From Candidatus Thiodictyon syntrophicum (GTDB taxonomy: Bacteria > Pseudomonadota > Gammaproteobacteria > Chromatiales > Chromatiaceae): a DNA stretch of 64,000 bases. Below, one piece after another: positions 1,241 to 58,599 of this stretch. Each line of letters begins with the position of its first letter. Position 1 is the stretch's first letter. The stretch is taken from assembly GCF_002813775.1 (NCBI RefSeq), contig NZ_CP020370.1:5171501-5235500 (forward strand), in the 5' to 3' direction. The translations under genes and the position numbers were made by a program. The notes under the pieces are model-generated. The model saw nothing but the letters and a program-made list of their open reading frames with translations. It had not been told where the DNA came from and searched no databases.

Positions 1241-1379
<139 letters not shown>

Positions 1380-3890: not shown

Positions 3891-4027
3891 TCGTTGTCGT
3901 TGTCGTAATCGGAGAAGCGATGCAATTCGGCGTGCAAGAGAATCCGGGGCCCAGGATGACCGCGATTACGATTACGATTACGATTACGATTACGATTACG
4001 ACAACGACAACGGCGCGACAAGCATTC
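3891..4027 (+). repeat. Hexamer-arm inverted repeat, subfamily A, copy A2
   Basis: Left arm CGTTGT x2 plus CGTAATCG. The core starts GAGAAGCGATGCAATTC. The right arm has ATTACG x6 then ACAACG x2, so the arms are unequal. It ends GCGCGACAAGCATTC, matching the edge of copy A1. Same orientation as A1; together they bracket the restriction-modification pair. Confidence 0.9.
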
Positions 4028-4093
4028 CCTAACGATTTTGATGACCTGGCCGCAAGCAAACTCGTAACACCAGACCCCGCAGGAGCCGCCGCC

Positions 4094-4794: not shown

Positions 4795-4934
4795 ATCCAC
4801 AGATGAACACAGATGAACACAGATTTTCTCAGAATTGTCATGCGTCTTCGCTATTGTCACAGTCACCGCCAGAATGAGTCCCCGGCCAAGCGTAAGTCAA
4901 TGAATCATCTGTGTTCATCTGTGTTCATCTGTGG
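4795..4934. repeat. ATCTGTGTTCATCTGTGG repeat, inverted pair
   Basis: Left arm (4795-4825) reads CCACAGATGAACACAGATG and continues with another GAACACAGAT. The right arm (4903-4934) is its reverse complement, giving a roughly 30-bp inverted repeat with a 77-nt loop. The left arm plus the following 40 bases (ATTGTCATGCG..CGCTATTGTCA) recurs inverted at 42768-42841. This fills most of the gap between the hypothetical gene and pgpA (4691-4980). Confidence 0.85.
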
Positions 4935-5865: not shown

Positions 5866-5904
5866 GCGCTTTTCGGGCCAGGGCGAACGGACCCGCCCCC
5901 GGCC

Positions 5905-6098
5905 GGGTGCGCGATGCGTACCCTGCAGCTACAGCTACCGGACGCTCTCACGGACCGGGCGTCGTTGTCGTTGTCGCTGTCGTTGTCGCTGTCGTTGTCG
6001 TTGTCGTAATCGAATAATCCGACCACGATTACGACAACGACAACGACAACGACGGCGTACCCGGGATCTCGGTCACCACATCAGTTCTGACCGCACCC
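5905..6098 (+). repeat. Hexamer-arm inverted repeat, subfamily B, copy B1
   Basis: Left arm from 5961 has seven CGTTGT-type hexamers, two of them CGCTGT variants, then CGTAATCG. The loop is short (AATAATCCGACCA). The right arm is ATTACG x1 and ACAACG x3. The flanks (GCGATGCGTACCCT on the left, GGGATCTCGGTCACCACAT on the right) are shared with copy B2 at 42.6 kb and not with subfamily A. It occupies the gap between pgpA and the efflux operon; 6099-6250 shows nothing else except the leader of the adaptor gene. Confidence 0.88.
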
Positions 6099-10725: not shown

Positions 10726-12367
10726 CCTGAAGCGACCCGCGATCTTGGATGCGACCACCGCGCCCTTTGCGGGGGCGTCGGTCCGCACAGCGGACCCTAC
10801 GGGGGGGGCAACCCCTAGGGTCCGCTGTGCGGACCGAGCGGCACCGGCCCTGAGCGCCAGTCTCGCAGCGACCATGACGCTGGCGGTTCTGCTCGCCGGC
10901 TGCATGGTCGGCCCCGATTATGTCCGGCCCAAGGTCGATACCCCGGCGCAGTACCGCTTCCAGTTCCGCGAGGTGCAGGAGACCGCCAACACCCGTTGGT
11001 GGCGGGGCTTCAACGACCCGGTCCTGGACGACCTGATCAGTCAGGCCCTGGCCCATAATTGGAACGTCAAGATCGCCGCGGCCAACGTGGAGGCCGCCGC
11101 CGGGGTCCTGAGCCAGGCCCGCGCACCGCTCTTTCCGCAACTGACCTACAACGGCGTGGGCGAGCGTGCGCGCGTCTCCGAGGACACCGCCACCACCATC
11201 CCGGGCACCTTCGCGAACCCGGCGGACAACTTCCAGGTCCTCGCCGGGGCCTCTTGGGAGATCGACCTGTGGGGCCGCATCCGCCGTCAGACCGAGGCGG
11301 CGCGGGCCAACCTGCTCGCCACCGAGGAGGCCAGACGCGGTGTCATCCTGTCACTGGTGGGGACGGTGGCGAGCGGCTACCTCCAGTTGCGCGGGCTCGA
11401 CTCCCAACTCGCCTTGTCGAAGCAGACCCAGGCTGCCTATGGCGAATCCCTGCGCCTGTTCGAGGCCCAGTTCAAATACGGACAGGTCTCGGAGATGACG
11501 GTCGCCCAGGCCAAGTCGCAGTACGAGACCGCCAGCGCCCAGATCCCGCTCCTGGAACGCAAGATCGCCCAGACCGAGAATGGCATCGGCGTGCTCCTGG
11601 GACGCAACCCCGGGCCTATCCCGCGCGGCCTGCCCGTCGAGACCCTGGTGGCGCCGGCCGTCCCGGCCGGGGTCCCGTCGGACCTGCTGGCCCGCCGACC
11701 GGACATTCTGGAGGCGGAGCAGCAATTGATCGCCGCCAATGCCCGGATCGGCGCGGCCCGGGCACTGTACTTCCCGACCATCTCCCTGACCGGCGCCCTG
11801 GGCACCAACAGCGCCCAACTCGCCAACCTCTTCAGCGGACCGGCCAATACCTGGAGCTTTGCCGGGACCCTGGCCGGACCCATCTTCACCGCCGGGGCGG
11901 TCAGCGGTCAGGTCGCCCAGGCCGTGGCGCTCCAGCAAGCGGCCCTGAACAACTACCAGCGGGTCATCGTGGGCGCCTTCGCCGACGTCTCCAACGCACT
12001 CGTCGGCCGGGAGAAGCTGACCGCCGAGGTGACGACCCAGCAGCGGCTGGTCCAGGCCTTGAGCGACTATGCGCGCCTGGCCAGGCTCCAGTTCACCGGC
12101 GGCTATGTCCCCTACTCGACGGTGCTCCAGGCCGATCAGGAACTCTTTCCCGCCGAACTGAACCTGGCGGCCACCCGCGCCGCCAGCCTGATCGCGCTGG
12201 TCAGCATCTATCAGGCCATGGGCGGCGGCTGGGTCGACGAGGCCGCCCGCGAGGCCCCGGCACCGGTGCGCGGCAAGGGGCCCTTCGCCCCGGCCATCCC
12301 CAGGGCGCCGGGGGTGGTGGCGCCACCGGCGGGAGCGGGGTCGGGTGTTGCTGGTGCGGCGCAATAG
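10718..12367 (+). CDS. RND efflux outer-membrane channel lipoprotein (OprM/NodT family)
   Basis: TolC-like outer-membrane channel of the efflux operon. The lipobox LLAGC is followed by MVGPDYVRP, the typical OprM start, then paired outer-membrane efflux repeats (WWRGFNDPVLDDLISQAL; WEIDLWGRIRRQTEAAR; RRPDILEAEQQLIAANARIG). The ATG at 10718 overlaps the pump stop and would put the lipidated Cys at residue 62, far deeper than normal. The only later ATG (10874) leaves just 9 residues before Cys, too short for a signal. The long leader is due to a hairpin repeat at 10779-10836 inside the frame. The stop codon lies at the edge of repeat A3. Confidence 0.9.
   Translation: MSDLKRPAILDATTAPFAGASVRTADPTGGATPRVRCADRAAPALSASLAATMTLAVLLAGCMVGPDYVRPKVDTPAQYRFQFREVQETANTRWWRGFNDPVLDDLISQALAHNWNVKIAAANVEAAAGVLSQARAPLFPQLTYNGVGERARVSEDTATTIPGTFANPADNFQVLAGASWEIDLWGRIRRQTEAARANLLATEEARRGVILSLVGTVASGYLQLRGLDSQLALSKQTQAAYGESLRLFEAQFKYGQVSEMTVAQAKSQYETASAQIPLLERKIAQTENGIGVLLGRNPGPIPRGLPVETLVAPAVPAGVPSDLLARRPDILEAEQQLIAANARIGAARALYFPTISLTGALGTNSAQLANLFSGPANTWSFAGTLAGPIFTAGAVSGQVAQAVALQQAALNNYQRVIVGAFADVSNALVGREKLTAEVTTQQRLVQALSDYARLARLQFTGGYVPYSTVLQADQELFPAELNLAATRAASLIALVSIYQAMGGGWVDEAAREAPAPVRGKGPFAPAIPRAPGVVAPPAGAGSGVAGAAQ
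10779..10836. repeat. 21-bp perfect inverted repeat inside the channel gene leader
   Basis: CGGTCCGCACAGCGGACCCT at 10779-10798 (plus one A) is exactly reverse-complemented at 10816-10836, with a G-rich 16-nt loop. It belongs to a TAGGGTNCGC...GCGNACC type of dispersed palindrome, also seen at 18244-18263 and 42530-42599. It sits in frame and encodes SVRTADPTGG..RVRCADR of the pre-signal leader. Confidence 0.9.
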
Positions 12368-12580
12368 TAACGAGTCAAGAACCAGTCAAACGCAATCGTT
12401 GTCGTTCTCGTTGTCGTAATCGGAGAAGCAATGCACTTTCGGCTGCGAGGGAATCCGGGCACTACGATAACCCTCGATTACGATTACGATTACGATTACG
12501 ATTACGACAACGACAACGACAACGGCGCTATAGCCAGTACCTAATGGAATTGTTTAAGTTATCAGTGAACCGTTCCTTCG
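12365..12580 (+). repeat. Hexamer-arm inverted repeat, subfamily A, copy A3 (longest)
   Basis: Full-length copy with conserved outer flanks: TAGTAACGAGTCAAGAACC on the left and GTTTAAGTTATCAGTGAACC on the right. Both recur inverted in copy A4 at 50.6 kb. Left arm has CGTTGT hexamers with one CGTTCT variant; right arm is ATTACG x5 and ACAACG x3. The first three bases are the stop codon of the efflux channel gene. The remaining gap to 12679 contains only the leader of the next gene. Confidence 0.9.
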
Positions 12581-18366: not shown

Positions 18367-21300
18367 TCAGCGCCGCTCCACCAGCACAAAGGGCGCCCAA
18401 TAGGCCGGGTCCTGCCGACGCGGGTCCGCCTTGTCCCCGATCCATCCCAGCCGCGCCGCGCGCAGGGCGTCGGACGGGTCGCTGTTGGGTCCGGCGCTGA
18501 GCCAGCGGCGGTAGAAGTCGCCCATGAACTCGGCGGCCAGCGCATCGTCGAGCGGCCACAGTGACATCAGCACGGCCTGGGCCCCGGCAATCTGGAAGGC
18601 GCGCACGAGACCATAGACCCCCTCGGAGCGGTCCAGCGCCCCGCGGCCGGTGTCGCAGGCGGACAGGGTCACCAGCCGGGTCCCCTCCAGGTTGAGATCC
18701 TGCGCCTCCAGTGCATAGAGGATGCCGTCCTGGTGGCCCGGGCCGAGCTTGCCCGTAAGGCCCAGGTTGGCCCCGGCCAGCGCCAGCCCGGCGAGCGTCA
18801 GGGGCCGGTCCGTCCCATCCGCCCGGGCGGCCAGAAAGAAGCCGTGGGTCGCAAGATGCAGCACCAGCGGCGGCTCGGTGATCGCGCTCAGGCTGGACTC
18901 GGCCGCCTCCGGCCCGGTCAGGACCCGTGCCTTACGGTTGAAATAGTCCCAGAACGAGCGCCCGACCGCCGCGGCCTCGGGACCGGTCTGCGGGAGCGGC
19001 TTGAAGCTGCCGCGCTCGGCGCGCAGCCGCTCGTTCAAAGGAGCCGGGGCGTCCCGCCCCGGCGCACCAACAACCGCCGTCGCCTCCACCCCAGCCTCCG
19101 CCGCCGGAAACCGCTCGTAATCCACCCCGCCCATCGCGATCATCCCCACCGCCTCCCCGCCCGCCTCCAGCGGCAAAAGGTCGCGCCCGGTGCCCAGTTC
19201 CCGCAGCGACTGGCGCTCGACCCAGTAGCGCCCGTCGGGGAGCTTGAGCCGCGCGAAGGGCATCAGGTCCAGCGCCCCGTCCGGGGCCAGGTACAGGATG
19301 GAGAAGCCGGCCAGGGTCTTGTCCAGTGCGCCGAACAGGGTCCGGTAGAGGGTCCGGGCGGACTCATCGGCGGACTGATTGACGGCCGCCAGGCGGGCGC
19401 GGACCTCCTCCGGCTTGGCCGGCGCGGCCGGGTCGAGCGCGTCGGCGCAGGCCGGGCGGGGGTCGGGGGCGGCCAGGAGTTGGTTGAGACAGAGAGCCTC
19501 GCGGGTCAGGCGGGTCAGGTCCGCCTGGAGCGGGGTCGTGGCCGAGACGGGACCCAGGTCGAAGATGCGCAGCGTCGGGGGCTCCTTGGGTTTCTTCTTC
19601 CCGGACCGCTTCCCGGCGTGGCTGCCCGTATCAGTCTCCGCCGCCGGCTGCGCGCTCGTCAGTACGGCGAGCCAGCGGTCCTCGCCGAACTTCCCGGTCT
19701 TGAAATCGACCGGCTTGAAGGCGCGGAGTTCCAGCAGTGCCGCACCGCGCGGCAGGGCCGCCTGGACCGACTCCCACTCCACCGAGCGGCCAGCCACCTG
19801 GCCGCGAAAGCGGCGGCTCAATCCGGCCAGTTCGGTCTCCAGCCGCTCCAATTCGGCCAGTTCGGCGGCTGTCACCTTGGGGTCCGGCTTGGGCAGATTG
19901 ACTAACCGGCTCAGTTCGCTACGCGCCTGACGGAGACGCCCGCCCAGGTCCATCACCCGCGGGTCTCGGCTGGTACGGGTCAGCCGCGCGATCACCGCCT
20001 CCTCGTCGCCCGCCAGGCGCTTCCAGCGCAACAGGATGTCCGCCGCCAGTGGCAGCGCGGCGCTGTCTGGGTGGGCCAGGGCCAGGGTGAAGACGATGTC
20101 CTGAAGCCCGGACTCCGTGACCAGCCATTGGCGGCGCACCAATTCTGAGCCGGTGGTATCCAACTGGCGCCCGACGAAGGTCCGCAAGCGGCCGTCGATC
20201 ACCCGCAACTCGGCGAGGGCAGGGGCCAAGCGGCCCTGGTTGACTAAGATAGGCGCCAGGTTGCCTTGGACCCGAATAGTATTCGGATGGTACTCGCCAA
20301 GCACTCGCTCACTAATACCCAGCGCCCGGCGCAAAAGAAGTTCCGCATCGCGATAGCGGCCTTTGGCCCAGTACAAGCCGGCCAGGTTGTTTACGCTTGT
20401 GAGGGTATGCGGATGCTCAACTCCCAGCACCCGCTCGCAAACATGCAACGTCTGGCGGTAGAGCCTCTCGGCCTTTTCGTAGCTGCCCTGGTCCTGGTAC
20501 AGACCTGCGAGGTTGTTAGCACTCTGGAGCGTATCCGGATGCTCCGCCCCCAGCACCCGCTCGCGGGCGGCCAACGTCCGGCGGTAGAGCGGTTCCGCCT
20601 CAGCGTAGCGGCCCAAACCCGTGTAAAGCAAAGCGAGGTTGTTGGCGCTCTGGAGAGTCTGCGGATGCTCGGCGCCTAAGACCCGTGTGCTGGTCTCCAA
20701 CGCTCGCCGGTAGAACGACTCCGCCTCATCGTTGCGATCTTGAGTCCGGTACAGTTCGGCGAGGTTGTTGACGCTCGAAAGGGTATCCGGATGCTCGGCC
20801 CCCAGCACCCGTTCGCTCGCTTCAAACGTCCGACGCAGGAGCGGCTCCGCCTCACCATACCGGCCTTGGGCTAGGTACAGGCTGGCCAGATTGTTGACAC
20901 TTGATAGGGTATCCGGATTGTCGTGTCCCAGCACCCGCTCGCTGGCCTCCAGCGTCCGCCGCAGGAGCGGCTCCGCCTCGCCAAAGCGGGCCTGAAAATA
21001 GTAAAGGCTTGCGAGGATGGCGGCACTCTTGAGGGTCTGCGGATGCTCGGCCCCCAGCGCCCGCTCATTAGCCACAAACCCGCGGTAGCAAAGCGGCTCC
21101 GCCTCACTGTAGCGGCCCTGGGTCAGATACAGGCCAGCGAGGTTGTTGACGCTCGAAAGGGTATCCGGATGGTTGGGCCCCAGCACTCGCTCGCGGGCCT
21201 CCAGCGCCCGGCGGAGGAGTGGCTCCGCCTCACCATAGCGGCCTTGGGAGTAGTACAGGCCAGCCAGGTTGTTGACGCTTGCGAGGGTATCCGGATGCTC

Positions 21301-21567
21301 GGCCCCCAGCACGCGCTCGCCGTGATCAAGGGCAATGCGGGCGAACGGCTCGGCGTCAGCATGGCGGCCTTCTTCCAAGAGCCCGACGGTAATGCGGTTC
21401 AAGACATCCACCACCGCTACCGCATCCGGCTCCACCCCGGTCTGCTCGCGCAACGCGGCGGTCACCTCATCGATCAGCGCCTGCTCACCGCCATCCTCCC
21501 CCCCGCCCACCGGCCCGGCGAGGATCAGCGCGAAGACCAATGCAAGGGTGCGGACGAAGTCTGACAT
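18367..21567 (-). CDS. Exported TPR-CHAT caspase-like protease
   Basis: 1066-residue protein with a hydrophobic signal-like N-terminus (VRTLALVFALILAGPVGG), about nine 42-residue tetratricopeptide units of the kinesin-light-chain/TPR_12 type (ERVLGAEHPDTLxSVNNLAxLYxxQGRYxEAEPL), a central helical region, and a C-terminal CHAT domain. The CHAT catalytic pair is visible as His908 in LHLATHGFF and Cys971 in LSACDTGRG. CHAT proteins are caspase-like cysteine proteases, often in signalling or cell-death pathways. Substrate unknown. A shorter paralogue lies at 27970-30417, and both stand divergently from an Rpn-like nuclease gene. Confidence 0.9.
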   Translation of the reverse strand: MSDFVRTLALVFALILAGPVGGGEDGGEQALIDEVTAALREQTGVEPDAVAVVDVLNRITVGLLEEGRHADAEPFARIALDHGERVLGAEHPDTLASVNNLAGLYYSQGRYGEAEPLLRRALEARERVLGPNHPDTLSSVNNLAGLYLTQGRYSEAEPLCYRGFVANERALGAEHPQTLKSAAILASLYYFQARFGEAEPLLRRTLEASERVLGHDNPDTLSSVNNLASLYLAQGRYGEAEPLLRRTFEASERVLGAEHPDTLSSVNNLAELYRTQDRNDEAESFYRRALETSTRVLGAEHPQTLQSANNLALLYTGLGRYAEAEPLYRRTLAARERVLGAEHPDTLQSANNLAGLYQDQGSYEKAERLYRQTLHVCERVLGVEHPHTLTSVNNLAGLYWAKGRYRDAELLLRRALGISERVLGEYHPNTIRVQGNLAPILVNQGRLAPALAELRVIDGRLRTFVGRQLDTTGSELVRRQWLVTESGLQDIVFTLALAHPDSAALPLAADILLRWKRLAGDEEAVIARLTRTSRDPRVMDLGGRLRQARSELSRLVNLPKPDPKVTAAELAELERLETELAGLSRRFRGQVAGRSVEWESVQAALPRGAALLELRAFKPVDFKTGKFGEDRWLAVLTSAQPAAETDTGSHAGKRSGKKKPKEPPTLRIFDLGPVSATTPLQADLTRLTREALCLNQLLAAPDPRPACADALDPAAPAKPEEVRARLAAVNQSADESARTLYRTLFGALDKTLAGFSILYLAPDGALDLMPFARLKLPDGRYWVERQSLRELGTGRDLLPLEAGGEAVGMIAMGGVDYERFPAAEAGVEATAVVGAPGRDAPAPLNERLRAERGSFKPLPQTGPEAAAVGRSFWDYFNRKARVLTGPEAAESSLSAITEPPLVLHLATHGFFLAARADGTDRPLTLAGLALAGANLGLTGKLGPGHQDGILYALEAQDLNLEGTRLVTLSACDTGRGALDRSEGVYGLVRAFQIAGAQAVLMSLWPLDDALAAEFMGDFYRRWLSAGPNSDPSDALRAARLGWIGDKADPRRQDPAYWAPFVLVERR

Positions 21568-23612: not shown

Positions 23613-24377
23613 GCTAAAGCGTCGGCCTCCGGTCGAGTCGCCCCGGTCGTGGGAGGTCGAGTTGGGAACCTGGGCGCGACCCGGTGGCCCCGGGCCGCGG
23701 GCAGCGCATCCACGCATAGACTAAGATACCGCCTTCACGACCCTTTTGTCCCTTCACCGCGGCGCCGGCCTTCAGGCCCGGGCACCCGCGCCACGGTGCC
23801 CGCGCGAGGATCGACCTGCCCACCCTGGACTTGACCGAGGTCCCGGACCGGCTTTATCACCGGCTTGAACATGATCAACTGGCACCGCCTCTTCGGCCTG
23901 GCCCTGGAAGACTACTTCACCGGTACCCGCTATGCGGTGGAGATGGAGAAGGACGTCGCGCGCAAGCGCCAGGTCCTGGATGTCGTCATCGTGCGCGGGA
24001 CGGGCGAGGCGCTGGTCGACCCCTGCGACGGTCTGGAAGACCTCAAACCGCACAACCTCCTGACCTACAAATCGGGTCAGGAGAGCCTGGACGCCTGGGC
24101 GATCGAGGAACTGATCGGCCACTACGTCAACTACCGCAAGGCGTTCGCGCCCCGGGAGCCGGCCGCCCGGTTCGGGCTCTATGCGGTCACCACACGCCGC
24201 CCCCGCGCACTGGCGGAACAGGTTACGCTGACGCCGGTCAAACCCGGGGTCTACCGGCTGCCGGTCGTGGGCCGCACGATTACGCTGATCGTGCTGCGCG
24301 AGGTGGAGCCCTGCCCGCGCAACGCCCTGTGGGAGATCTTCAGCTTTGAAGCAGCGAAGGTCGCCGCCGGGGCCGGC

Positions 24378-27969: not shown

Positions 27970-30417
27970 CTACCTGCGCTCCACCAGCACATAGGGCGCC
28001 CAGTGCCGCGGGTCGCGCTTCTCGGGACGCTCGCTGCCGATCCAGTCGAGTTGGGTCCGGCGCAGTGCGGACGCCGGATCGGCGGGCAGGCCGGGCTTGC
28101 GGTCGAGCCAGTTGCGATAGAAGTCCGTGACGAATTCGGCCGCCAGGTCGTCGTTGAGCGGGCGCAGCGTCATGAGGACATTGGCGGCCCCGGCGATCTG
28201 GAAGGCGCGTACCAGGCCGTAGACCCCTTCGGACCTGTCGACCTCGCCCTTGCCGGTGTCGCAGGCGGAGAGTGTGACCAGTTCGGTGCCGGTCAGGTCC
28301 AGGTCCAGGACCTCCAGGGCGTTGAGGATGCCGTTGTCGGACTGGTCCGCCCCGGCCTTCGCGGTTGGGACCCGGTTGGCGCCGGCCAGGGCGAGCAGGG
28401 AAAGTGTCATGGGTCGCTCGGCCGGGTCGGCACGCGGAATGAAGCAACCGTGGGTGGCCAGGTGCAGGACACGCGGCGGTGGGGAGTGTGACTTGAGCCG
28501 GGACTTGCTGGCGTCGCGGCCCTGGAGGACCAGGACCTCGCCGCCATCCGGATCGAAATGGGTCTTGAGATAGTTCATCTCAACTGCGGTTCCGGGGACC
28601 GGCGGGAATACGCTACAGGCGGCCCGCAGGCGCGGGTTGGGCTGGTTTGGGCCGGTATTGGCGACGGTGCGTGCTAGCGCTGCACCGCTAGGCTGTGACC
28701 GCGACTTCGCCTTCTTGGGCGACTGGACCGACCGCGCCGAACCGTAGTCCACTGCGCCGAGCGCGAACAAACCACGCGCGGCCGGCACCGGCTCGCGGGC
28801 GATCAAGTCGCGACCGCTGCGCACCTGGCGCAAGGTCTGCCGCTCGATCCAGTAACGACCGTCAGGTAGTTTGAGGCGGGCGAAGGGAACCAAGTCCAGT
28901 GCCCCATCGGGGGCGATATAGAGGGTGTCGAAGCCTGCCAGTTCCCGGTCAAGTGGGCCGAGCAGGGCGGCGTAGAAACGGGCGGAGGCGGCGTCGATCT
29001 CGGCGCCTATGGCCTCGGACCGGGCCTGCGCCTGGGCCGGCGCGGCGAAGTTGGCCGCATCGTAGCCCTCGGCGCAGGCTGGACGTTCAGTTCGCTTGGC
29101 GAGATAGCGCGCGAGACAGAGGTCCTCGTCGGTGAGTCGGGCCATGTTCTCTCGATCGGACGCGGATGCCGCGACCGGACCCAGGTCGACCAGGCGCGGA
29201 GCCTTGGCCTTCCCGTCGCTGCCGAGATCGGCGCTCGCCTCCAACACCAGGGCCAGCCAATGGTCCTCATCGAACTGCCTGCTCTTAAAGTTGAACGACT
29301 TGAACGCGCGCAGGTCTAGCAGAGCCGCATTCCGCGGCAACGCCTGCCGCACCGCCTGCCAGGTGGCCGCCTCGCTAGCGGCCTGGTTGGCGAAGGTGCG
29401 GATGCGGGTCCTGAGTGCCACTTCCAGTCGATCCAGTTCGGCCAGGGACTGGTCCCGCGCCTGCTTGCGCGCGGACAGTTGCTCCGGCTTGGCGTCCGGC
29501 AGGGTGACCAGTCGGCTGTAGTCGGACCGGGCCTGTTGGACCTGCCGGGCAAGGTCCCGTATCTGCGGGTCGCCGCTGGTACGGGCGAGCCGCGCGAGCA
29601 CCGCTTCCTGCTCACCCGCCAAACGCTTCCAGCGCAGCAGGATATCCGCGGCCAGGGGCTGGGCGTCGCTGTACGAGCGGGCCAGGGCTAGGGTAAACAC
29701 AGCATCTTGGAGCCTGGACTCGGTCGCCAGCCATTGGCGGCGTACCAACTCCGATCCAGTGGTATCCAACTGGCGCCCGACGAAGGTCCGCAGGCGCCCG
29801 TCGATGATCCGTAACTGGGCTAGGGCCGGGTTCAGTCGGTCCATGTTGACCAAGGCAGTCACCAAGTTGAACTCGACCTCAATGGTGTCTTGATGGGCCT
29901 CCCCGAGCACGCGTTCCCTGGCCTGCAGCGCGCGGCGATAGAGCGGCTCCGCCTCGCCTTAGCGGCCCTGGGCGCGGTATAGGGCGGCGAGGTTGTTGAT
30001 GCTCGTGAGGGTATCCGAATGCTCGGCCCCCAGCACCCGCTCACGGACCTCCAGTGCCCGGCGGTCGAGCGACTCCGCCTCACCATAGCGACCTTGGGCT
30101 TCGTATAGAAAGCCGAGGTTGTTAACGCTTTTGAGGGTATTCGGATGCTCGGCCCCAAGCACCCGCTCGCCTCGCTCGAGCGCGAGCCGGGCGACCGGTT
30201 CGGCCTCGGCATAGCGACCTTCCTGGAGAAGGCCAGCCGTCTTGCGGTTCAGGGCATCCACCAGCGCCGCCGCCTTCGGCTTCGCCCCGGTCTGCTTGCG
30301 CAGCGCCGCGGTAACCTCATCGATCAGCGCCTGCTCACCGCCCTCCTCCCCCCCGCCCACCGGCCCGACGAGGATCAGCGCGAATACCAATGCAAAAGCT
30401 CGGACGAAAACCGACAT
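27970..30417 (-). pseudogene. Second TPR-CHAT protease gene, interrupted by an in-frame TAA
   Basis: Paralogue of the CHAT gene at 18367-21567: same signal-like N-terminus (VRAFALVFALILVGPVGG), only three 42-residue TPR units, then a conserved middle and a CHAT domain with His in LHLATHGCF and Cys in LSACDTGKG. The frame is interrupted once by TAA at 29959-29961, exactly where the repeat consensus GRYGEAEPL needs Tyr (reads GR-stop-GEAEPL). No shift is needed; reading through gives 815 residues. It is either a recent nonsense mutation or a sequencing error. Start chosen at 30417 to match the paralogue. Confidence 0.88.
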
Positions 30418-30606
30418 GGCGAAGCTCCATGACCATAGCAAAGACCCGCTCGGGGTCCGGTGCGTACCGCCCCTGCCCGCGGGCCGGGTCGCGACAACCG
30501 CGGGCAACGCGGGGGATGATAGCGCAACGGCGATCCCACCACTTGCCGGATGCACCGCCGCCCCCTACCCTAGCCCGATCATCGATCCACCGCCGTGATG
30601 GCACCC

Positions 30607-31395
30607 ATGATCAACTGGCACCGCCTCTTCGGCCTGGCCCTGGAAGACTACTTCACCGGTACCCGCTATGCGGTGGAGATGGAGAAGGACGTCGCGCACA
30701 AGCGCCAGGTCCTGGATGTCGTCATCGTGCGCGGGACGGGCGAGGCCCTGGTCGACCCCTGCGACGGGCTGGAAGACCTCAAACCCCACAACCTCCTGAC
30801 CTACAAGTCGGGCCAGGAGAGCCTGGACGCCTGGGCGATCGAGGAACTGATCGGCCATTACGTCAACTACCGCAAGGCGTTCGCACCCCGGGAGCCGGCC
30901 GGCGAGTTCGGGCTCTACGCGGTCACCACCCGCCGCCCCCGCGCCCTGGCGGAACAGGTCGCACTGGAGCGGGTCAAACCCGGGGTCTACCTCCTGCCGG
31001 TCGTGGGCCGCACGATTACGCTGATCGTGCTGCGCGAGGTGGCGCCCTGCCCGCGCAACGCACTGTGGGAGATCTTCAGCTTCGAGGCGGCGAAGATCGC
31101 CGCTGGGGCCGGCATGTACCAGTGGCGCCAGGACGACCATTTTCCGATACTTGAAGAAATCTACCGACGCTACCGCGAGGCGGGTATCCCGATGTCATAC
31201 ACCTTCCAAGACTTTCGCCGCGACCTCGCACGCGAGACGCTGCCTGAGCTGACCCCGGAGGAACGGCTGCGGGGGCTGCCGCCGGAGGACCTGGTACGTG
31301 GACTGCGCACCGAGGGGCGCCTGCGCGGGCTCAGTGACGAAGATCTCGCCCAGCTCAAAGACCTGCTGGAGCGCGGCACATCCGGCCGTCCTTGA
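30607..31395 (+). CDS. Rpn-like PD-(D/E)XK family protein, copy 2
   Basis: 262 residues, intact. The N-terminal domain resembles Rpn/transposase-associated PD-(D/E)XK nucleases: acidic residues in YAVEMEKDV, Asp37 in LDVVIVRG, then KPHNLLTYKSG, which aligns with the HNxIExKS motif of that family but has Thr in place of the usual catalytic Glu. The C-terminal tail is built of short Leu-rich units (PEERLRGL, PEDLVRGL, RLRGLSDED). Start chosen as the ATG matching the other copies; an ATG 9 bases upstream also exists. It is divergent from the second CHAT gene with 189 bases between starts. Confidence 0.75.
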   Translation: MINWHRLFGLALEDYFTGTRYAVEMEKDVAHKRQVLDVVIVRGTGEALVDPCDGLEDLKPHNLLTYKSGQESLDAWAIEELIGHYVNYRKAFAPREPAGEFGLYAVTTRRPRALAEQVALERVKPGVYLLPVVGRTITLIVLREVAPCPRNALWEIFSFEAAKIAAGAGMYQWRQDDHFPILEEIYRRYREAGIPMSYTFQDFRRDLARETLPELTPEERLRGLPPEDLVRGLRTEGRLRGLSDEDLAQLKDLLERGTSGRP

Positions 31396-31608
31396 TCCTG
31401 TTCCCGGCCACGCCGTGCCGCGGCACGTCCGCGACATGGCTCCCGCGGTGCGGTGAGAGCACGCGCGGCACCCGGGTCGAACGTCGGGAGCGCAGCACCC
31501 CTGCTTGGAATCGAGGCGAGCGCGATCCGACCCCGGAAGCGACCCCGGCGTTGTGCACCCCGCACCCCGCACCAAGCCAACAGCCCCGCGTGAGCATCCA
31601 AACCCAGC

Positions 31609-32424
31609 ATGATCAACTGGCACCGCCTCTTCGGCCTGGCCCTGGAAGACTACTTCACCGGCACCCGCTATGCGGTGGAGATGGAGAAGGACGTCGCGCG
31701 CAAGCGCCAGGTCCTGGATGTCGTCATCGTGCGCGGGACGGGCGAGGCCTTGGTCGACCCCTGCGACGGGCTGGAAGACCTCAAACCGCACAACCTCCTG
31801 ACCTACAAATCGGGTCAGGAGAGCCTGGACGCCTGGGCGATCGAGGAACTGATCGGCCATTACGTGAACTACCGCAAGGCGTTCGCGCCACGGGAGCCGG
31901 CCGCCCGGTTCGGACTCTATGCAGTCACTACCCGCCGCCCCCGCGCCCTGGCGGAACAGGTTACGCTGACGCCGGTCAAACCCGGGGTCTACCGGCTGCC
32001 GGTCGTGGGCCGCACCATTACGCTCATCGTCCTGCGCGAGGTGGCGCCCTGCCCACGTAACGCACTGTGGGAGATCTTCAGCTTTGAAGCGGCGAAGGTC
32101 GCCGCCGGGGCCGGCATGTACCGCTGGCGCCAGGACGACCATTTTCCGATACTTGAAGAAATCTACCGACGCTACCGCGAGGCGGGTATCCCGATGTCAT
32201 ACACCTTCCAAGACTTTCGCCGCGACCTCGCACGCGAGACGCTGCCTGAACTGACCCCGGAGGAGCGGTTGCGGGGGCTGCCGCCGGAAGAACTGGCGCG
32301 TCGGCTTCGCCCTGAAGAGCGTCTGCGCGGGCTTAGCGAAGAAGAGCGGCTGCTCGGACTCAGCGACGAGGCGGCAGCCCGGCTCAAGGACCTGCTGGAG
32401 CGCCGGACGTCCGGCAAGCAGTGA
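31609..32424 (+). CDS. Rpn-like PD-(D/E)XK family protein, copy 3
   Basis: 271 residues, nearly identical to copy 2 over the first 225, so a recent tandem duplication. The same LDVVIVRG and LLTYKS motifs are present. The C-terminal tail is longer, with extra octamer-like units (PEERLRGL, PEELARRL, PEERLRGL, EEERLLGL), so the tail length varies between copies by whole units. The spacer to copy 2 (31396-31608) shows no gene. Function is unknown; family members are linked to mobile DNA and recombination, but the Glu-to-Thr change makes nuclease activity doubtful. Confidence 0.75.
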   Translation: MINWHRLFGLALEDYFTGTRYAVEMEKDVARKRQVLDVVIVRGTGEALVDPCDGLEDLKPHNLLTYKSGQESLDAWAIEELIGHYVNYRKAFAPREPAARFGLYAVTTRRPRALAEQVTLTPVKPGVYRLPVVGRTITLIVLREVAPCPRNALWEIFSFEAAKVAAGAGMYRWRQDDHFPILEEIYRRYREAGIPMSYTFQDFRRDLARETLPELTPEERLRGLPPEELARRLRPEERLRGLSEEERLLGLSDEAAARLKDLLERRTSGKQ

Positions 32425-42529: not shown

Positions 42530-42599
42530 GTAGGGTACGCATCGCGTACCCGCCAAGCTGCCACAACCGCCGGAGCTGGGTACGCGATGCGTACCCTAC
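42530..42599. repeat. 22-bp perfect inverted repeat GTAGGGTACGC...
   Basis: GTAGGGTACGCATCGCGTAC (plus CC) at 42530-42551 is exactly reverse-complemented at 42578-42599 around a 26-nt loop. The right arm continues into element B2. Same palindrome type as those at 10779 and 18244. Confidence 0.88.
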
Positions 42600-42749
42600 A
42601 GCTACCGGAAGTTTTCACGGGCCGGGTGTTGTCGTTGTCGTTGTCGTTGTCGTAATCGCGGTCGAATTATTCGATTACGACAACGACAACGACAACGACA
42701 ACGACAGCGTACCTGGGATCTCGGTCACCACATCAGTTCTGATCGCACC
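42578..42749 (+). repeat. Hexamer-arm inverted repeat, subfamily B, copy B2
   Basis: Flanks (GCGATGCGTACCCT; GGGATCTCGGTCACCACAT; CAGTTCTGATCGCACC) match copy B1. The left arm is GTTGTCG-type hexamers ending CGTAATCG; the loop is CGGTCGAATTATT; the right arm is ATTACG x1 and ACAACG x4. Together with the palindrome and repeat C it fills the gap between vapB and xthA (42477-42817). Confidence 0.88.
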
Positions 42750-42767
42750 TGGGACGCACCTTGCCGG

Positions 42768-42841
42768 TGATTATGACAATAGCGATAAGCGCATGACAAT
42801 CCGAAGAGAATCTGTGTTCATCTGTGTTCATCTGTGGATTC
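42768..42841 (-). repeat. ATCTGTGTTCATCTGTGG repeat, second locus
   Basis: Inverted relative of 4795-4867: GAATCTGTGTTCATCTGTG and the adjoining TGACAATAGCG..GCATGACAAT both match. Its right end overlaps the 3' end of xthA and supplies that gene's last codons and stop. Confidence 0.82.
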
Positions 42842-43657
42842 CAGATCGAAGCTGGCCCACACCGGGCAATGATCGGAGGGCCGGTCCATGGCGCGCAGTG
42901 CATAGTCGATACCGGCCTCGCGCAGGCGCTCCTTCAGCGGGGCGCTGACCAGAATCAGGTCGATCCGCAGGCCCCGCCGGGGCTCGCGCTCAAAGCCCTT
43001 GGAACGATAGTCGAACCAACTGAAGCGGTCATCGACCGCCGGGTGCAGGACCCGGTAGGCGTCATGCAGCCCCCAGTCCATGACGACCTTGAGCCATTCG
43101 CGTTCCTCGGGCAGGAAGCTGCACTTGCCCTCGCGCAGCCAGCGCTTGGCGTTGTCGGCCCCGATCCCGATATCGAGATCCAGCGGTGCCACGTTCATGT
43201 CACCCATCACCACCAGGTTCTGATCGGGGCTGAAGGATTCGCGCAGATAGGCCGCCAGATCGCGATAGAAGGCGGCCTTGCCGGGAAACTTCACCGGGTG
43301 GTCGCGCCCCTCACCCTGGGGAAAATAGCCATTGATGACGGTGACTTCCCCACCCCCGGCCAGGGCATAGCGCCCGGTGATGGCGCGGCGCTGGGCGTCC
43401 TGCGGATCGCTCGGGAACCCCTTGGTCACCGCCAGCGGTTGCGTCTTGCTGAGGAGTGCGACCCCGTAGTGTCCCTTCTGACCGTGGCAATGCGCGCGAT
43501 AGCCCACCCCTTCCACCATCGCCAGGGGGAACTCCTCATCAACCACCTTGCACTCCTGCAGGCCCAGGATGTCGGGATCGAGCCCCGCCCTCAGCGCCTC
43601 CAACTGGTGGGGCCGGGCGCGGATGCCATTGATATTGAATGAACAGATCGTGAGCAT
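42818..43657 (-). CDS. xthA: Exodeoxyribonuclease III / AP endonuclease
   Basis: DNA repair enzyme that cuts at abasic sites and trims 3' ends. 279 residues from the ATG at 43657 ([20 protein letters not shown]). Conserved motifs of the exonuclease III fold: GLQECKV (metal Glu), [27 protein letters not shown] (catalytic Asp/Asn), RIDLILVS and PSDHCPVW (catalytic His). The last six codons, STDEHR, and the stop lie in the dispersed ATCTGTGTTC repeat, so the repeat has replaced the original 3' end, though the fold is complete. Confidence 0.95.
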
Positions 43658-43743: not shown

Positions 43744-43900
43744 AAGAAGAAGTTTAGCCGCAAATGAACGCAAATAGACGCAAATAATCAGCGACTTGGC
43801 CTTGGCTGCATGTTCACCGTCGGGGTGACGCCCGCGACGATGCTAACCAGCAGATTTATTTGCGCTTATTTGCGTTCATTTGCGGCCAAATACTCTTCTT
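43744..43900. repeat. GCAAATGAACGCAAATA inverted repeat pair
   Basis: Left part AGTTTAGCCGCAAATGAACG continuing CAAATAGACGCAAATAA (43752-43786). Right part is the complement, TTATTTGCGCTTATTTGCG then TTCATTTGCGGCC (43856-43887). The outer edges (AGAAGAAG / CTTCTTGGG) also pair imperfectly. The loop of about 70 nt is non-coding. Fills the gap between xthA and lpxB. Confidence 0.8.
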
Positions 43901-50539: not shown

Positions 50540-50587
50540 GGAGTACTCCCCCAGGGTCGAGACGCCGCCCGGATCGGGGCCGCGACT

Positions 50588-50780
50588 AAGGAACGGTTCA
50601 CCAATAAGTTAAACAAGTCGATCAGCGAATGCCTTTAGCGTCGTTGTCGTTGTCGTTGTCGTAATCGAGGTTATCGTAGCGCCGCAGATGCTCTCGCACC
50701 CCGAATTGCATCGCTTCTCCGATTACGACAACGACAACGACAACGATGGTGTTTAACTTGTTCTTAACTCGTTACTAAAG
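50588..50780 (-). repeat. Hexamer-arm inverted repeat, subfamily A, copy A4 (inverted)
   Basis: Reads as the reverse complement of copy A3, with the same outer flanks: GGAACGGTTCACC.. at the left and GTTCTTAACTCGTTACTAAAG at the right, one or two bases trimmed. The core in reverse starts GAGAAGCGATGCAATTCG. Arms: CGTTGT x3 plus CGTAATCG; ATTACG x1 plus ACAACG x3. It lies between bamA and rseP; 50781-50961 shows no gene. Confidence 0.92.
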
Positions 50781-58403: not shown

Positions 58404-58599
58404 GATCGTTTCCTCGATGTTCTGGGTTAGGCCTCCACGCGTCCCATGCAGCAACCCCCCAGGCAGCGATCCCGGCGGGCACCCGGCAACATGTGACGAC
58501 GCGTGTGTGGTTGAATATCCGACCGCAACAGCGGCTGGTGCTCGTAATATCAGGCCCGGGAGTGGAGGACCGCACGTCTTTCGGCCGGCCCCAAAAATA

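Follow-up and report, generated by a model that had tools for sequence, protein, structure and literature searches.

The systems closest to the repeats described here are the bacterial MITEs, which in the available parts of the accounts concerned are short, lack a transposase gene, are bounded by terminal inverted repeats (TIRs), carry a target duplication and exist in many intergenic copies (PMC3049150), and which are credited with hairpin potential and a presumed mobilisation in trans (PMC3049150; for a review see PMC10969869). Our repeat family, which we call family A, is alike in these respects but differs from the MITEs covered by those portions in two others: its arms are built from two kinds of tandem hexamer in mirror order, and these arms recur in elements with other ends and another duplication length. 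The BOX repeats of Streptococcus pneumoniae, in so far as the available part of the source describes them (PMC3049150), are also composite and dispersed, with an internal module whose number varies between strains; there, however, a single central boxB is repeated (boxA-(boxB)n-boxC), whereas family A has two inverted hexamer arms that vary independently, and the likeness is one of architecture only. A third point of reference is provided by the GTAG and CGTC REPs, palindromic repeats that, according to the portion of the source available, are found in several phyla including Planctomycetes and in the CGTC case are likewise without a known transposase, but which measure 20-40 bp and bear a tetranucleotide tag, family A being larger and having TIRs and duplications (PMC3733652). 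No description of the element itself was found in the literature searched, which means titles and the starts of abstracts, with subscription journals mostly outside the search, and a text search for CGTTGTCGTTGTCG gave a sole match, about a human adrenoceptor.

The window, by which we mean the whole stretch of 64,000 nucleotides analysed, is chromosome 5171501-5235500 of the purple sulfur bacterium "Thiodictyon syntrophicum" Cad16T, whose own genome is labelled G000. An earlier note, made from the letters of this stretch, had picked out four copies of a dispersed hairpin at 1241, 3891, 12365 and 50588; a reading of the sequence places all four correctly, and they are members of the large family A (Table 1). 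The numbers of ATTACG/ACAACG given for their right arms, respectively 2/5, 6/2, 5/3 and 1/3, are exact, and the last copy is inverted, as had been said, being an intact element on the minus strand. A common core start, GAGAAGCGATGC, had also been proposed; this is true of 3891 and 50588, but the core at 12365 begins GAGAAGCAATGC and that at 1241 begins GAGAATCGCCGC. The outer flanks seen to be common to two copies (12365 and 50588) are in fact the TIRs of the element, lost from copies 1241 and 3891, and of the two intact copies only the one on the minus strand retains a 3-bp duplication, the other lacking an intact one because its flanks differ (ATA vs TTC). The arm pattern CGATTACGACAACGACAACG, with up to two mismatches, has 26 matches in the window against 0.00 expected from 100 dinucleotide shuffles. 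The judgement that this is not CRISPR is borne out, since the repeats are dispersed and inverted and form no array of direct repeats with spacers; the five CRISPR arrays reported for the Cad16T genome lie, by the available part of that report, outside the window and are made of other repeats (PMC5944118).

Table 1. Copies of the hexamer-armed hairpins in the window, followed by hexamer-unit numbers at orthologous loci (G000 first, G006 second).
Feature	Position in window	Strand	Details
Family A copy without terminal repeats	1244..1379	+	remnant of right subterminal region present
left arm	1244-1267	+	3 GTTGTC + 1 GTAATC
right arm	1322-1363	+	2 GATTAC + 5 GACAAC; core between arms
Family A copy without terminal repeats	3893..4031	+	remnant of right subterminal region present
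left arm	3893-3910	+	
right arm	3964-4011	+	6 GATTAC + 2 GACAAC
Family B hairpin	5961..6058	+	core AATAATCCGACC; flanks differ from family A
Intact family A copy	12367..12576	+	210 bp; flanking triplets ATA / TTC
left TIR	12367-12391	+	
left arm	12398-12421	+	4 hexamers
core	12422-12475	+	
right arm	12476-12523	+	5 GATTAC + 3 GACAAC
right TIR	12552-12576	+	
Second family B hairpin	42628..42710	-	hexamer arms as family A; 96% complementary to 5975 copy
Intact family A copy	50590..50775	-	186 bp; duplication TTA (TAA at 50587-50589 and 50776-50778)
L001/L103			left-arm units 4 vs 6; right 4/4
L006/L319			left-arm units 4 vs 7; right 4/2
L115/L320			left-arm units 9 vs 4; right 5/4
L130/L322			left-arm units 6 vs 2; right 3/4
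L147/L323			left-arm units 3 vs 5; right 7/5
L015/L324			left-arm units 6 vs 7; right 4/4

Outside the window, too, there are further copies, without which the earlier note would have given up its proposal: searching the whole genome with the left-end pattern GTAACGAGTCAAGAACAAGTTA, up to three mismatches allowed, gives 103 matches and the reversed control pattern gives 0, and the right end gives 43 with, again, 0 for its reversed control. Of 55 genomes compared, nine have matches, namely the strain's own, six of seven congeners and two others of Chromatiaceae, while the 21 that belong to other families have none; nor was there a match in plasmids, phages or viral contigs, in a search from which records near the Cad16T genome may be excluded. 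Our working set consists of 79 distinct family A cores, 65 of them 54 nt long. The order of an intact element is TIR, short spacer, (GTTGTC)n(GTAATC)m, core, (GATTAC)m'(GACAAC)n', subterminal GACGC..AGCATTCCCTAATGGACTTG and TIR, and two-ended copies are 158-384 bp long (40 scored, 31 in the own genome and nine in congeners). The 25-nt TIRs are imperfect, left GTAACGAGTCAAGAACAAGTTAAAC and right GGAACGGTTCACTAATAAGTTAAAC (reverse complement) being equal at 19/25 positions in a manual count on the consensus ends. Arms were scored in 76 cores, both being present in 74, and GATTAC stands innermost in the left arm of 48 of these 76 copies and in the right arm of 55, and never outermost; hexamer units were admitted partly via positions 1, 2 and 6, so that conservation there is built in, and position bias was left unused.

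Long copies contain, between their arms, seven ORFs of 74-102 aa, none of which matches a Pfam family, and reading these ORFs revealed no transposase or other recognisable gene inside the element. A gene-bearing ancestor (23S IVP, a four-helix bundle), suggested by a core reading RBS-ATG-MHFGVRENPGRYDNLDYDYDND, was considered and dropped: PF05635 has just three matches in the genome, two at loci without a hexamer unit and one at a locus with a single unit, and the longer congener copies contain other palindromes without a recognised protein. Another palindrome, with ends of the GGCCTTGATCATNN..TCCGGCC type, is nested in the family A cores of L113, L131, L149, L164 and L323; it is present in L323, which belongs to the congener G006, and absent from its G000 orthologue L147.

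We consider it very likely that family A is a MITE, that is, a non-autonomous element moved by a transposase in trans with a 3-bp TNA duplication, whose arms later vary unit by unit. The duplication was tested on 40 of 67 end pairs, one row per element, the 27 excluded pairs being 21 opposite-strand rows, L061 (orthologous in G006 to L001), alternative ends for the elements L047 and L096, and three with low scores (L095, L102 and L111). Identical 3-bp flanks are seen in 13 of the 40 elements, where shuffles give 6.1 (p=0.00075), and where TNR stands on both sides (26 elements) the middle base agrees in 18, with 9.9 expected (p=0.0003); duplication lengths of 2, 4 and 5 show no excess over shuffles in the same 40. 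Insertion favours TNA, commonly in the form cTNAg. That an exact duplication is found in just 13 of 40, a weaker signal than for a young MITE, is what old copies would lead one to expect, and no pair among the 79 is closer than 93.1% identity over at least 120 nt, which counts against recent transposition. These features sit badly with a REP/RAYT-type or other IS200/IS605 single-strand element, which would share with family A dispersed palindromes and could be thought of in view of the GGAG at the left-arm foot; given the TIRs, the 3-bp duplication (to our knowledge IS200/IS605 insertion makes none) and the size of the scored copies, from 158 to 384 bp, we regard that origin as highly improbable.

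The MITE reading also draws on the orthologous places in relatives, where the earlier note had proposed a search for empty sites. These are present: at least three of 21 joined flanks match uninterrupted in four congeners, judged by BLAST of the joined flanks, since MAFFT views positioned the gaps poorly. The sites concerned are L014 in G003 (87%), L018 in G006 (91%, extending 37 nt past the join) and L120 in G001 (79%, with a poor alignment right at the junction) and G004 (76%). In addition, L143 sits inside a different repeat of which uninterrupted copies exist. At least six of the 21 sites (L006, L015, L115, L120, L130 and L147) are occupied in G006 with both flanks on one contig, as is the L001 site, while among the matches listed most of the 21 joined flanks are neither clearly empty nor clearly occupied, some having one flank only. 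As for the window copies, there is no element in the orthologous place of G004 for the 1244 copy (G001 has another, unrelated insert there), of G003 for the 3893 copy, or of G004 and G001 for the 12367 copy, and the copy at 50590-50775 is common to G006 (orthologue L061/L103), a congener that is about 95% identical to G000 across a 4.8-kb stretch. Family A is old, and some of its insertions arose or were lost after the lineages of G000 and G006 had parted.

We picture, as a working scheme, a transposase, probably of the DDE type, that would act in trans to insert the element and duplicate 3 bp. Later, copies lose their ends, acquire other palindromes in the core or are interrupted by an IS. 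The earlier idea of a mobile hairpin is right in that the element moved; the moving unit, however, is the TIR-bounded MITE, and the hexamer hairpin is its internal module. A new MITE family of unusual architecture, with former mobility and unit-wise arm change, is well supported.

Which enzyme moved it is a natural next question, and the earlier note had suggested looking for an association with a transposase gene; none was found together with family A ends in the loci and transposase families examined, although the genome is complete, and this is a point against the MITE reading. We looked for a transposase between matching ends at 40 left-end and 18 right-end loci. At 31 of the 40 left-end loci hexamer arms lie directly inside the end, which makes these MITE copies. 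This leaves nine: in L120 and L141 the two ends lie no more than 300 nt apart, L110 shows first a decamer palindrome and then hexamer arms, and ORFs were read in L124, L125, L132, L137, L140 and L144, with a putative transposase in L125 and L144 only. At the 18 right-end loci arms or palindromes precede the end, except at L154 and L160, where ORFs were read by eye. L125 was rejected as an autonomous partner, being an IS with inverted repeats of its own, CAGCAATTCCCGC, inserted in a family A remnant; this IS lies at about 5166.6-5168.3 kb of G000 C1, 3 kb before the window, and has a 9-bp duplication, CACAGTGAA. L144/L308 was rejected too, as an IS near a left end whose transposase is matched by same-scoring ones at four loci (L305-L307 and L309) without such an end. 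The best 30 of 54 matches to PF01609 include no transposase with family A ends. Duplications of 3 bp at TNA mark the IS5 family (IS1031 group) and the PIF/Harbinger-like transposons, and family A resembles these in its duplication. At 11 PF13340 loci in congeners no end matches at 17/25 positions or more, and because ends are not shared there we do not assign family A to the IS5/IS1031 group; a DUF4096 IS in G007 (L171) has TCA on both sides and ends that differ from those of family A, and the element-carrying genomes G000, G006 and G003 have no PF13340 match.

The arms themselves have a history that can be counted. The earlier note had them growing and shrinking by whole units, and left arms do indeed differ in all six hexamer-bearing orthologous pairs of G000 and G006 (Table 1; numbers counted manually in one register, the scripted count having put some arms in another). 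The L120/L321 pair stands outside these six comparisons because L120 has no hexamers: the orthologous shell of this pair contains hexamers in L321 of G006 (right end not located in this comparison) but palindromes of another kind in L120 of G000. At L117, positions 415-554, the right arm is an array of 23.3 copies of CGACAA with 100% match, which suggests a recent expansion. The length of the left arm shows no correlation with that of the right (Spearman -0.01, n=74), so that the arms change independently and a pairing length is not maintained. After insertion each arm gains or loses whole hexamers on its own, and the mechanism we infer is replication slippage, assisted by folding of the hairpin; the slippage put forward in the earlier note is borne out as whole-unit change at orthologous loci, the slippage itself being the presumed cause.

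This independence also bears on whether the hairpin could be a functional RNA or terminator selected at gene ends. Its predicted fold is strong in single copies (z -5.9 for 50588 and -3.95 for 12365), and the setting is intergenic, with convergent neighbours commoner than divergent ones: by a crude ORF method, the neighbours of 42 copies with usable flanks are tandem (25 copies), convergent (9) or divergent (4), with one side unclassified for a further 4, and none of the 42 is spanned by a long high-GC3 ORF. Nevertheless, we think an RNA or terminator function very unlikely: uncorrelated arm lengths argue against it, as does a consensus RNA fold of the 79 cores that contains no pair, the element is missing from orthologous intergenic spaces, and the copy at 50590-50775 sits between a gene for an M50/PDZ peptidase (RseP-like) and one for an Omp85/POTRA protein (BamA-like), where a strong terminator would presumably be costly.

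Hairpins of comparable build also occur in the window with another unit length. Tandem decamers (AACACAGATG and AAATGAACGC types) form the arms of hairpins or half-hairpins at 4797-4933, 42810-42848 and 43753-43890, which repeat the architecture of the hexamer hairpins, and one of the AACACAGATG type is nested just within the MITE left end at L110. Other repeats of the window include stretches of 126-nt period at 20286-21467 and, as a related stretch 8.7 kb on, at 29892-30191 (nine copies of a 300-nt reference, 62-76% identical outside the reference copy), and a 300-nt repeat in three copies of at least 96% identity (23870-24169, 30606-30905 and 31608-31907). At the Rfam gathering threshold the window has a single family match, to t44 RNA, at 58426-58527 on the minus strand.

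The hexamer arms are not confined to family A. Family B has them between other flanks in the window, its repeats extending over 5902-6080 and 42575-42750 with further examples at L031 and L040, and G001 and G004 lack its 5961-6058 hairpin in the orthologous space between genes. In Thiorhodococcus and Thiocystis, arms of the family A type are seen by eye with CTAGTGC-type ends. Family B, and the differing contents of one orthologous shell (hexamers in L321, other palindromes in L120), show that arms and MITE shell can be separated. A search of a species-genome collection with the exact arm pattern and a core of 20-50 nt gave 58 stretches, comprising 22 in Chromatiaceae, 31 in Planctomycetota (two MAGs), three in Desulfobacteraceae and one each in Opitutales and Anaerolineae, and in these distant hairpins GTTGTC is outside and GTAATC inside, as in family A. 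The Planctomycetota hairpins are MITE-like; in 19 of 34 a TIR, GGCCTGGTTCA, is present at both ends, and these have an 8-bp duplication (at least 7/8 positions equal in seven of 19, against 0.58 in shuffles, maximum 5), although the end position was picked from six shifts tried and some of the 19 may be one site in two MAGs (for example, L221 and L261). When three family A copies are compared with these 19 elements there are 557 matches unmasked and 0 with the arms masked. In the Desulfobacteraceae MAG other hexamer-like inverted units stand near the GACAAC hairpins, namely TATCGN (L254) and GCACGN (L265), both by eye, and an AGCGAT pair (L238).

The arms have the look of a module shared by elements that are otherwise unrelated. 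Such a module might have spread separately, by capture, insertion or horizontal transfer, or have been retained through binding of a host factor or transposase; we hold this to be possible, if somewhat doubtful, and it would supplement the MITE reading of family A and not replace it. Speaking for it are the different flanks of family B, the other ends in Thiorhodococcus and Thiocystis, the Planctomycetota elements with ends and an 8-bp duplication of their own, the loss of all cross-phylum matches on masking, and the L321/L120 shell with its differing contents. The native hexamer order, moreover, matches in 12 of 14 genome handles (G002 and G055 have identical matches and are apparently one genome) and the swapped order in one, with a single match, in Anaerolineae. 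Inverted tandem-array pairs in the loci analysed, an ascertained sample, are nearly all of AACGAC-type hexamers, with a few others. Against this, order and unit in the distant MAGs, whose taxonomy is that of their record titles, come from a biased sample, because those genomes were found through the native-order pattern; different ends and 3-bp vs 8-bp duplications cover two phyla, Planctomycetota alone outside Chromatiaceae, with three more taxa represented by the hairpin alone; no hexamer hairpin was seen to insert by itself; and a slippage-prone simple repeat may have converged. The fuller proposal, that two-hexamer inverted arms are a recurrent part of mini-transposons with different transposases, acting as a captured or mobile module or as a binding array whose length is tuned or tolerated, is speculative and, to our minds, rather doubtful.

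The surprising result is this recurrence of the arms in another phylum with different ends and a different duplication length, which may have come about by transfer, capture, selection of binding sites or convergence. In its scores of copies, and in its orthologous pairs in close relatives, family A provides a natural setting in which the changes of inverted tandem arrays within mobile DNA can be counted. It also raises the question of why two hexamers, in a shared order, are found in unrelated elements of Gammaproteobacteria and Planctomycetota, and this question covers the hairpins of Desulfobacteraceae, Opitutales and Anaerolineae as well.
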